A stretch of DNA of 64,000 bases from Thermodesulfovibrionia bacterium. GTDB lineage: Bacteria > Nitrospirota > Thermodesulfovibrionia > UBA6902. Below, piece by piece: positions 32,387 through 36,800 of this stretch. The notes beneath the pieces are model-generated. The model was not told the DNA's origin, searched no databases, and worked only from the letters and a program-made list of their open reading frames with translations. The stretch is from assembly GCA_947259645.1 (NCBI GenBank), contig CAMYND010000009.1, positions 71,241-135,240 on the forward strand, written 5' to 3'. The position numbers and the translations under genes were made by a program. Position 1 is the stretch's first letter; every line of letters begins with the position of its first letter.

Positions 32387-33274
32387 TCAGGACAACTTCC
32401 CTAAGAGTTTCTCGAAATTCATAAGAAACATTGTAACAAGCATGAATGCATTAATCGCCTTGAACGTTTGAATGTAGGAATACATGTTCTTCTCTCTGCT
32501 TACAAGGCGTGATCCCTTCCAGGCAAGCCAGGAGGCAGAAAGTAAGATAAGGGCAGGAATGATCACATTTGATGACGGTATATAAAGGGGAAGGAAGAGG
32601 GCGCTCACAGCTGCCGCGGCAATCCAGATACAGGTTATTCTTTTTATCTGCACTTCTGAAAAAACATGCAGCAGAGACGGGTATCCTGAATTGGCGTAAT
32701 CACCGTCATGAGAGAGCATGATCAGCCAGAAGTGGGGGATCTGCCACATGAAGAAAAAGAAGGCGATCACACTTATCTCATATGAGGGAAACAGACCGTT
32801 GCCTGCAATCCATCCCATAACAGGCGGAACAGCTCCTGTAACAGCTCCCGGTACCGCGGCGAAGGCTGTTTTCTTTTTCAGAAACGTATAGATGCCGTTG
32901 TACCAGATGACAGCAAACAAGCCCAATGCGGAGATGACAATGTTTTCCAGAAGAAAGAGAATCACAAAACCTGACATGATGAGTGCCAAAGAAAAGATGA
33001 GACCATGAGCAGGCTTGATCCTGCCTGATGGCAGGGGCCTCATTTTTGTCCTGTTCATTTTAAGATCATGGTCTCTCTCCTGGTACTGGTTCAGGGAGCA
33101 GGCCCCACAGGCCAGGAGAAATACACCGCATGCAATAGTGAGCAGACCTGTTGCCGGGCCCGCGCCGGCGAGGATGAAACCGGTGGAGGCTGATAGGGCT
33201 GAAAACAGGGCAATCCTCAGTTTCGATAGCTCTATGAATACTTTTATGATTTCAGTTGACCTGCGAGGAAACAT
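32387..33274 (-). CDS. ctaB: Protoheme IX farnesyltransferase
   Basis: NQYQERDHDLKMNRTKMRPLPSGRI, multi-TM, located in the cox operon. Confidence 0.95.
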   Translation of the reverse strand: MFPRRSTEIIKVFIELSKLRIALFSALSASTGFILAGAGPATGLLTIACGVFLLACGACSLNQYQERDHDLKMNRTKMRPLPSGRIKPAHGLIFSLALIMSGFVILFLLENIVISALGLFAVIWYNGIYTFLKKKTAFAAVPGAVTGAVPPVMGWIAGNGLFPSYEISVIAFFFFMWQIPHFWLIMLSHDGDYANSGYPSLLHVFSEVQIKRITCIWIAAAAVSALFLPLYIPSSNVIIPALILLSASWLAWKGSRLVSREKNMYSYIQTFKAINAFMLVTMFLMNFEKLLGKLS

Positions 33275-34269
33275 TATCGGACACTCTTTAGATACTCAAT
33301 AACAGCGTTCAGTTGCATTTCAGAAAAATCTCCTTTATAGGAAGGCATCACTTCCGGGTATCCTTGAACAATATCAGCTTCAGGATAGAGAATAGCCCGC
33401 CGTATGTACTCATCGTCAACTGTTATGGTGCGTTTTTTGCCGTCTGTAATGACTACGTGGCGGCGGTTGAACATACCCTTGAATGTTGGTCCTACTGCTT
33501 CAGAACCGTCAAGGCTGTGGCAGTCAAGGCATCCTGTGTCATTGATAAGGTTTTCCACAGAAATAACTTTTCCCGGTTCTTCCGGAGTACGCGAGACTGC
33601 ATACCAGTCGCTGAAATTCTCAGCAGACATGGCAATCACTTTCGTATTCATTGCTGAGTGCCCGACCCCGCAATACTCAGTTCAGTAGATATCATACTCA
33701 CCCTCTTTGTCAGAGTGAAACCACATGGTCGTTTCCATCCCCGGGACAACGTCTTCTTTCAATTTTAAGGCAGGGATAAAGAGGCTGTGCAGAACATCAT
33801 CAGATGTCATGAGCAGCTGTGTCGGCTTACCGGCAGGCACTCTCAGAACATCGCTCTTTGTGCCATTTGGATACTGGAACTTCCAGCCCCACATGCGGGC
33901 CGTTACCTTCACTACCATGGCATTCTCAGGGACGTGCCGTAAGGGCAGGTAGTTTTTCCACCCCACCCAAAACATGATAAAGACCAGTATCGTCGGAATA
34001 ACTGTCCAGGCAATCTCAAGGAGGAGCGGTTCTTTTACCTCACTGGCCCTGGGGTTCCTTTTATGGTGGTACCTGACAACAAAGTAAACCATGAATGCGG
34101 TGACAAGCACCAGGAGCACTATTGATATTACAAAGATCAGCATGAAGGAGTCATTTACTTTTTGCGTCAGGTCTGGAATGGACGAAAAGGAACCCTTGTC
34201 CTCGAGGTGTGCTGAAGGGACTAAAAAGCCCCCAAGTCTGTCTCCTATTTCCAGCAGATTCGTAATCAT
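33274..34269 (-). CDS. coxB: Cytochrome c oxidase subunit II with fused cytochrome c domain; in-frame TGA at 33682-33684, candidate selenocysteine
   Basis: Track ORFs 33682..34308 and 33274..33651 are in the same frame. Joined they read ...KEGEYDIY-[TGA]-TEYCGVGHSAMNTKV...TGCLDCHSLDG...YLKSVR, with CuA pattern [U/C]x3Cx3Hx2M and heme motif CLDCH. Confidence 0.85.
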
Positions 34270-34270
34270 A

Positions 34271-34567
34271 TTAATACCGGTACAGGACGTCCATGAATGT
34301 GAGTACAATAGTTACGGTAAGCGTAGAAAGCACAAAAAAGAGCATGGCCTTTAACATTCTGGATTCATGTTTCAGATGCATAAATATATAAACAACAAGG
34401 CTCGCTTTTACCGAGGCAATAAGAATATTTACAATTATGCCGTATCTGCCCAGGTCAATACCTGCCACATACACGGTTATTCCGGTAAGCGCCAGCAGGG
34501 CGGCCCAGACAGCAAGATATGGCCTGTACCCTGTTTTTTCATCTGATATGGTTTCTTTTTCTTTCAT
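34271..34567 (-). CDS. Cytochrome c oxidase subunit IV-like protein
   Basis: 98 aa, three TM segments (VNILIASVKASLVVYIFMHLKHESR), in the cox operon. Confidence 0.85.
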   Translation of the reverse strand: MKEKETISDEKTGYRPYLAVWAALLALTGITVYVAGIDLGRYGIIVNILIASVKASLVVYIFMHLKHESRMLKAMLFFVLSTLTVTIVLTFMDVLYRY

Positions 34568-34578
34568 CTAAAATACTG

Positions 34579-35202
34579 TTACTGGATGAGATAGATCAGG
34601 GGGAATAAATAAATCCAGATAATATCCACTAAATGCCAGTAGAGGCCCCCGTTTTCCAGTTTGATATAGTCTCCCTCATTAATTATATTCTTGTTTGTCA
34701 TTGCGAGAATGATGGCAAACGCGACTATCCCGATTATGACATGGAGCCCGTGAAGGCCGGTCATTACAAAGTAGAGGCTGTAAAAAATAATTTCTCCCTG
34801 AGAAGTAAGTTCTGGGGAGCCCGGCCAGATGCCGTGGCTGAATTTCGCAGTCCATTCAAAATACTTTACCACGAGAAATGCACTTGCGAATATAATTGTC
34901 AGGGCCTGAAACAGAAGCGAATGTCCCTTTTTACCACTTTTAAGGGCTGACAGGGAAAGCGCCATGGTAAGGCTGCTCGTGATAAGAATCAGGGTGTTGA
35001 TTGCTCCTATGGTGATGTTAAGCTCGGTTGCGGCATTCTGAAATTCAGCAAGATATTTCGAGCGGTAGACGGCGTAGAGAAGAAAGAGACCGCCAAAAAA
35101 GAGCAGTTCAGTAAAGAGAAATATCCACATGCCCAGTTTTGCCCCGGCGTAGTCCCTGTGGTTTGCTGCGTTTATATCAGCTGCGGCTGCTCTCTCCATC
35201 AC
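34579..35202 (-). CDS. coxC: Cytochrome c oxidase subunit III
   Basis: GLHGLHVIIGIVAFAIILA...YWHLVDIIWIYLFPLIYL. Confidence 0.93.
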   Translation of the reverse strand: MMERAAAADINAANHRDYAGAKLGMWIFLFTELLFFGGLFLLYAVYRSKYLAEFQNAATELNITIGAINTLILITSSLTMALSLSALKSGKKGHSLLFQALTIIFASAFLVVKYFEWTAKFSHGIWPGSPELTSQGEIIFYSLYFVMTGLHGLHVIIGIVAFAIILAMTNKNIINEGDYIKLENGGLYWHLVDIIWIYLFPLIYLIQ

Positions 35203-36800
35203 TGTTCAGGCTTCCTCCTGTATGGGGGCCCATCTATAACTGGTATCTCATGAAAATTTTCAACGGGCGGAGGAGAAGAGATCTGCCACTCAAGCGTTGT
35301 TCCTCCCCACACATTGTTATCAGCTGTCTTTCCGGAAAAAAGAGACCTGAGCAAATTAAACACCATGAGCAGAATACCTGCAATGAGAATCCAGGAGCCG
35401 ACAGTTGATATGACGTTGCCCGTGGTGAATTCAGCGGGATAGTCATAATATCTCCGCGGCATCCCCTGCCAGCCCAGCAGAAACTGGGGGAAGTAGAGAA
35501 TATTAAATCCCACGAACATGATCACCCCTGCGACTGTTGCGAGGGTCTCGTTGTACATTTTGCCGCAGATCTTTGGATACCAGTAGTGGAGTGCCGCAAA
35601 AAAAGCAAAGCCTGTCCCTCCAAACATCACATAGTGAAAATGCGAGACGATAAAGTATGTGTCATGTATATGGATGTTTACCGCGACCGACGAGTTGGCC
35701 AGCCCTGTGAGACCTCCAATTGAAAAGAGAAAGATAAAAAAGAGTGCAAACACCATGGGCGGAGCGAGAGATATGGAGCCCTTGTACATGGTTGATATCC
35801 AGTTAAAGACCTTGATTCCGCTTGGAACAGCGACAAAAAAAGTAAAAAACGAAAAGATCATGCGTGCTGTGTCACTCATACCGCTGGTGAACATGTGATG
35901 TCCCCATACTAAATAGCCGACAGCGGCGATAGAGAGTGTGGAGATCACGATCGCCTTATAGCCAAATATTGATTTTCTTGAAAAGACCGGGATGATTTCA
36001 GAAATGACCCCCATGGCAGGCAGAATCATTATATACACAGCAGGATGGGAGTAGATCCAGAAGAGGTGCTGAAACATGATGGGATCTCCGCCCTTTGCGG
36101 GATCGAAAAATCCTATACCGAGGGACCGCTCCAGAATCAGGAGAAGTACTGTTATTGCGAGCACCGGAGTGGCAAGTATCTGGACCCAGGAAGTCGCGTA
36201 AAGTGTCCAGGGGAACAGCGGCATACGCATCCATTTCATTCCGGGCGCCCTCAGCCGGTGAATGGTGGTAACAAAGTTCAGCCCTGTGAGTATGGAAGAA
36301 AATCCGACCACAAATGCGGCCGCGGCAGCAACGGAGATATTCGTTGTCGACTTGATGCTGTAGGGAGGATAAAATGTCCATCCCCCGTCAGGCGGGCCTC
36401 CCGGGAGAAATATTGTAGAGAGTGCAATAACGGCGGCAATAATATAAAGCCACCAGGAAAGCAGGTTAAGACGGGGAAAGGCAACGTCCCGGGCCCCGAT
36501 CATTATGGGGAGGAAAAAGTTTCCGAACGATGCTGTTATCCCCGGGATGATAAAGAAAAATATCATGATTATGCCATGGAGGGTAAAGAGGGAATTATAT
36601 GTTTGAGCGGTAACAATGGTTTGACCGGGGGCGATGAGTTCCAGCCGCATCAGAAACCCAAGGATGACCCCTGACAAAAAAAAGGAGAGAACTGACACCA
36701 GATAGAGGACGCCTATCCGCTTATGATCAGTTGATAAAATCCAGGAGAGTATTCCCTGGTATTTCCCTGTGTTTAAGTAGTTATTGTCCTGTCCACCCAT
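35199..36800 (-). CDS. coxA: Cytochrome c oxidase subunit I (A2-type YSHPAVY motif)
   Basis: STDHKRIGVLYL, YSHPAVYIMILPAMG, VWGHHMFTSGM, HDTYFIVSHFHYVMFGG. Confidence 0.96.
   Translation of the reverse strand: MGGQDNNYLNTGKYQGILSWILSTDHKRIGVLYLVSVLSFFLSGVILGFLMRLELIAPGQTIVTAQTYNSLFTLHGIIMIFFFIIPGITASFGNFFLPIMIGARDVAFPRLNLLSWWLYIIAAVIALSTIFLPGGPPDGGWTFYPPYSIKSTTNISVAAAAAFVVGFSSILTGLNFVTTIHRLRAPGMKWMRMPLFPWTLYATSWVQILATPVLAITVLLLILERSLGIGFFDPAKGGDPIMFQHLFWIYSHPAVYIMILPAMGVISEIIPVFSRKSIFGYKAIVISTLSIAAVGYLVWGHHMFTSGMSDTARMIFSFFTFFVAVPSGIKVFNWISTMYKGSISLAPPMVFALFFIFLFSIGGLTGLANSSVAVNIHIHDTYFIVSHFHYVMFGGTGFAFFAALHYWYPKICGKMYNETLATVAGVIMFVGFNILYFPQFLLGWQGMPRRYYDYPAEFTTGNVISTVGSWILIAGILLMVFNLLRSLFSGKTADNNVWGGTTLEWQISSPPPVENFHEIPVIDGPPYRRKPEQ

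Follow-up and report, generated by a model that had tools for sequence, protein, structure and literature searches.

Probable selenocysteine in place of a bridging CuA cysteine in cytochrome c oxidase subunit II of Thermodesulfovibrionia

The window, a 64,000-nucleotide stretch of a contig from a Thermodesulfovibrionia bacterium, carries on its minus strand an intact cytochrome c oxidase row in the order coxA-coxC-coxD-coxB-ctaB. The coxB gene, the sole coxB of the source genome, is read from an ATG at 34269 to a TAA at 33276-33274 and is open throughout apart from a single TGA at 33684-33682; the earlier note had described one such break at codon 196 followed by an open frame to 33274, and this description proved exact on re-reading. 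The TGA lies in the context EYDIY-[TGA]-TEYCGVGHSAM, with CLDCH further on. The features of the locus are as follows:

33274..34269, minus strand: coxB, cytochrome c oxidase subunit II with a C-terminal cytochrome c domain, 331 residues, codon 196 being TGA (proposed Sec); from the frame, Pfam, and NCBIfam
33682..33684, minus strand: in-frame TGA, codon 196, at the first CuA cysteine position (proposed Sec196); from the frame and alignment to solved oxidases
33649..33672, minus strand: other CuA ligands of the same loop, Cys200, His204, and Met207, with the Glu198 backbone just 5′; from the sequence and alignment to oxidase structures
33787-33789, minus strand: CuA ligand His161; from the sequence and alignment to oxidase structures
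33649..33675, minus strand: candidate SECIS hairpin UAUUGC-G-GGGU-CGGGC-ACUC-A-GCAAUG, loop 17 nt after the UGA, -8.5 kcal/mol
33280..33549, minus strand: conserved cytochrome c domain 3′ of the TGA, residues 241-330, with the CLDCH haem motif
35199..36800, minus strand: coxA, subunit I, intact and without acceleration on this lineage
34579..35202, minus strand: coxC, subunit III
34271..34567, minus strand: coxD, subunit IV (COX4_pro)
32387..33274, minus strand: UbiA-family protein, a ctaB-like haem O synthase, whose start overlaps the coxB stop

The CuA copper pair is held by two cysteines. With the TGA read as Cys, the coxB product scores 184.5 bits against the TIGR02866 cut-off of 147.7, as expected of a CoxB family member, and harbors the Pfam domains COX2_TM, COX2, and Cytochrom_C. 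In the alignment with solved oxidases, the TGA coincides with the first Cys of the Cx3Cx3Hx2M motif, as had been claimed, and all other CuA ligands are intact; the window protein has both bridging residues of the motif only if Sec is counted as equivalent to Cys. A search for a TGA at the first CuA cysteine gave a single match in the window, whereas 100 shuffled sequences gave none.

The source assembly (3.41 Mb, 131 contigs, 99.55% complete) encodes the complete selenocysteine machinery, for which the earlier note had recommended a search: a tRNA-Sec with a UCA anticodon (72.4 bits), SelB (369 bits), SelA (615 bits, adjoining SelB), and SelD (323 bits). At least four genes besides coxB use an in-frame TGA in this genome, among them selD itself (G000:C94:2026-2940, L043) and two formate dehydrogenase genes, fdhA, with one TGA each (G000:C7:56812-58815, L062; G000:C18:16407-18410, L063). 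Both FdhA genes have a strong SECIS hairpin with the loop GGUCU at +18 nt from the UGA. The multihaem cytochrome ExtKL also has an in-frame TGA and is encoded on the window's contig, outside the window (G000:C9:16946-18274, minus strand; L070, L110). Its TGA is retained in most homologues across the family, the order, and the class, and its SECIS hairpin, GCGGCACUGGAAGUGACCGC, is strongly conserved in nine genomes. ExtKL (NF040886) is an already catalogued selenoprotein (PMC13188914); its TGA was considered as a noise mutation, which is ruled out by the conservation of the TGA and by membership in this known selenoprotein family. A coding-potential scan of 792 kb of the source genome, judged by eye and of moderate sensitivity (fdhA was missed at the set threshold), yielded only coxB and ExtKL as truly interrupted genes, both by TGA, and no convincing gene interrupted by TAA or TAG.

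Whether relatives carry TGA or Cys at this codon, a check proposed in the earlier note, has a divided answer. The closest CoxB homologue (63% identity) has Cys, and every CoxB gene recovered from the source's family and order whose CuA motif could be read has TGC or TGT. Five genomes of another family, f15, have TGA at the identical codon, which brings the total to six with the source. A nucleotide pattern search of 396 genomes of the phylum recovered G278 and G146 (YDIF-U-TEYCGVGHSDM); like the other three, they belong to f15, which lies in the same class as the source. The pattern misses motifs that lack E/Q at the second place, and its count of TGA genes is therefore too low. A read-through protein search of 233 genomes of the class added G429 (YDIF-U-TEYCGEGHSHM), in which the gene is split over two contigs with the break just 5′ of the TGA, as well as two of the motifs outside the pattern, in G415 (YLGA-U-HSFCGMGHADM) and G430 (YLGT-U-NSFCGMGHADM). 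The CoxB proteins of G415 and G430 are of a distant type (33% and 31% identity, respectively) and are encoded in a coxB-coxA-coxC row. The five f15 genomes span three genera and two CoxB types. SelB scores over the family cut-off in G278, G146, G415, and G430, and a full-length SelB was not found in G429, an assembly that is 82% complete. No match was obtained in viral contigs or in a protein scan of wider genome contigs, the latter being uninformative because it was seeded solely by exact peptides of the window protein.

In a tree of 43 CoxB proteins, the TGA genes occupy three places with well-supported branches between them, namely G415/G430, G429 with G278/G146, and the window gene. This distribution requires at least three changes between Cys and Sec.

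The surroundings of these genes offer further observations. Behind the TGA-containing coxB, the f15 genomes have a separate gene for a cytochrome c (L130 1946-2338, L131 710-1102, L176 about 515-1020); its product is 69-77% identical to the C-terminal cytochrome domain of CoxB itself and looks like a duplicate of that domain. On G415:C9 (L167), a cytochrome b-like protein some 600 residues long ends in a cytochrome c domain that is 80% identical to that of the G278 CoxB, and the domain appears to have moved between the oxidase and a second respiratory complex. In the source's own family, one CoxB gene (G027:C172:18178-19077, L019) has an in-frame TAA in the aligned stretch and an intact CuA motif.

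Published limits for bacterial SECIS elements are a loop of 3-9 nt with a G in the first two places, a stem of 4-16 bp, a spacing of 16-37 nt, and an MFE of -7.5 or lower (PMC13188914). The window hairpin (loop CGGGC, spacing 17, -8.5) falls within these lax limits, yet it is not separable from Cys homologues on its own. An equally good fold is reached by 25-28% of synonymous versions and at 4.5-14% of randomly chosen Cys codons, and the hairpin alone is not significant by dinucleotide shuffling or synonymous resampling. An alternative window fold (-8.6) pairs CUGAGU with ACUCAG, has an AUU bulge, and closes on a GGGGUCGG loop; it resembles the shape of the E. coli SECIS and was rejected, its loop lying 12 nt after the UGA and outside the published range. 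With Cys in the nearest relatives and an unremarkable hairpin in the window, the case was at first weak, and an error could at that stage still have accounted for the TGA.

The related genes supply a common position for the hairpin. A GG dinucleotide, part of the Gly codon of the CuA motif, is found 18-19 nt after the UGA in all six genomes. Around a loop at +18, G278/G146 form GGGGUG-GGC-CACUCC, G429 forms GGGAA-GGUCA-UUCCC, and G415/G430 form GGCAUG-GGG-CAUGCC. The six genomes provide five distinct TGA sequences, G278 and G146 being identical in the hairpin region, and four of the five have 5-7 consecutive pairs at +18 (-5.4 to -9.0). The exception is the window gene, where GGGGUC-GGG-CACUCA pairs at four of its six positions, the other two being C.C and G.A, and lacks a flush GG loop, inside the range of Cys homologues. 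The combination of GG and such a stem occurs in none of 40 distinct Cys homologues (Mann-Whitney p = 8e-7 for the energies, a guide only since the sequences are related); one of these homologues forms a six-pair stem whose loop lacks GG, at -1.7 kcal/mol. The f15 stems vary on both sides in a compensatory manner (GGGGUG/CACUCC, GGGAA/UUCCC, GGCAUG/CAUGCC), even with changes of the encoded residue (Val, Glu, Met). The published limits are clearly satisfied by G278/G146 and G415/G430, while the G429 stem, at about -7 kcal/mol, is present and just outside the -7.5 threshold. The f15 coxB hairpins sit where the SelB elements sit in the source genome's FdhA.

The f15 coxB genes are under purifying selection downstream of the TGA, as observed in two species pairs. 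G278 and G146 differ 3′ of the TGA by 6 synonymous and 0 nonsynonymous changes (91 and 311 sites), for which the chance under neutrality is roughly 1e-4, or (91/402)^6. For G415 and G430, dN/dS is 0.235 before the TGA and 0.17 behind it. The window CoxB keeps 55 of the 59 columns conserved among relatives, the other four being changed conservatively. It had been claimed that the sequence after the TGA, including the CLDCH cytochrome c domain, is conserved, and indeed 24 of 25 conserved columns there are kept with a single L to V change, such that the residue loss expected of a pseudogene is not seen. Relative to its sister G011, the source has more unique residues in CoxB (45:25, about 1.8x) and fewer in coxA (28:35), coxC (15:20), and coxD (10:12). 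By a three-way count, the CoxB excess is alike on both sides of the TGA (25:15 upstream, 20:10 downstream), and dN against G011 is 0.363 downstream and 0.219 upstream. The faster CoxB branch reflects either adaptation around Sec or mild relaxed selection.

If the TGA stemmed from a wrong base in the metagenome assembly, or from a rare strain variant that the assembly captured, the source population would carry TGC or TGT and only the f15 genomes would have true selenoproteins. The Cys of the nearest relatives and the window hairpin, weaker than all others of the set and not superior to those of Cys homologues, are in keeping with such an error, as is the caution customary in the field toward single TGA sequences, which may be errors (PMC2398784). 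However, among the 331 codons the TGA occupies precisely the one at which five other assemblies have TGA, and the 792 kb scan gave no convincing counterpart interrupted by TAA or TAG; an error is accordingly considered improbable. A recent nonsense mutation, making coxB a young pseudogene of a dying oxidase, would fit the CoxB branch of about 1.8 times the sister's and the greater dN downstream of the TGA. Against it stand the conservative nature of the only four changes in conserved columns, the similar excess on both sides of the TGA, the lack of acceleration in coxA, coxC, and coxD, and the small chance that a mutation would strike exactly the position of the relatives' TGA, and it is judged quite improbable. 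Recurrence, hairpins, and purifying selection thus make both error and pseudogene unlikely.

Near-cognate suppression might instead insert a different residue, Cys or Trp, at the UGA, with no role for selenium. Nothing specific favors this explanation, which is extremely improbable: the source genome has dedicated Sec decoding, the hairpins of the related genes are placed like the SelB elements of its FdhA, and Trp is unable to bridge copper.

Selenocysteine at this codon is the preferred explanation. That Sec-CoxB exists in the class as a whole is considered highly probable on the available sequences, and that the window coxB encodes a selenoprotein with UGA196 as Sec is considered very likely, the latter being held slightly less firmly because the window gene's own SECIS is weak. 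The weakest hairpin of the set together with a CoxB that evolves about 1.8 times faster than its sister leaves some doubt for the window gene. The mixed Sec/Cys CuA centre proposed in the earlier note is backed by the machinery, the recurrence, the f15 hairpins, and selection, with selenium incorporation deduced from these genes. It is also likely that, within a single bacterial class, Sec took the place of the bridging CuA cysteine on three or more occasions and in two CoxB types that are distant from each other, giving rise to natural mixed Se/S dinuclear copper centres.

In the proposed mechanism, SelB and tRNA-Sec would decode UGA196 as selenocysteine with the help of the hairpin that immediately follows it, the CuA motif's Gly codon serving in the hairpin loop. 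In this caa3-like oxidase, Sec196 and Cys200 would together hold the CuA centre, with His161, His204, Met207, and the Glu198 O as further ligands; we infer both Sec insertion itself and the binding of copper by selenium. The selenocysteine may tune the redox potential of CuA, its assembly, or its reactivity. When selenium is absent, a membrane stub without CuA would be made, and the oxidase would thus likely be dependent on selenium.

CuA is among the most invariant metal sites in respiration. In the titles and abstracts of the literature searched, no natural selenocysteine case was found in connection with CoxB, CuA, or cupredoxin, and the searches indicate no earlier report of Sec in a respiratory CuA centre. 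ExtKL and an octahaem cytochrome appear in a 2026 review that catalogues prokaryotic selenoproteins, whereas CoxB, CuA, and cupredoxin do not (PMC13188914); a report may have gone unnoticed in the large MAG study of Deng et al., which that review cites. If the assignment is true, this CoxB would be, as far as found, the first haem-copper oxidase subunit to be a selenoprotein and the first case of Sec in a dinuclear copper site, extending beyond the window gene to other genomes of the class. Oxygen respiration via this oxidase would be selenium dependent, and the system would constitute a natural experiment on the tuning of CuA by Se versus S. The assignment would also correct annotations that break such genes in two, one part being a subunit that lacks CuA and the other an orphan cytochrome c.

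The window protein is similar to known CoxB proteins (TIGR02866; PF00116/PF02790) of the caa3-like type with a fused cytochrome c in family score, transmembrane part, cupredoxin domain, and gene row, and differs in that the codon for the first bridging CuA cysteine is TGA. With bacterial selenoproteins that employ SelB and a bSECIS, represented in this genome by FdhA, SelD, and ExtKL, the gene shares a TGA at a redox or metal-binding Cys, the machinery, and a candidate hairpin 16-37 nt 3′ of the TGA; in contrast to those known cases, its Sec would bridge the two metals of a dinuclear copper centre. ExtKL offers a parallel as an electron-transfer cytochrome with Sec in the same genome and clade, although its fold is unrelated.
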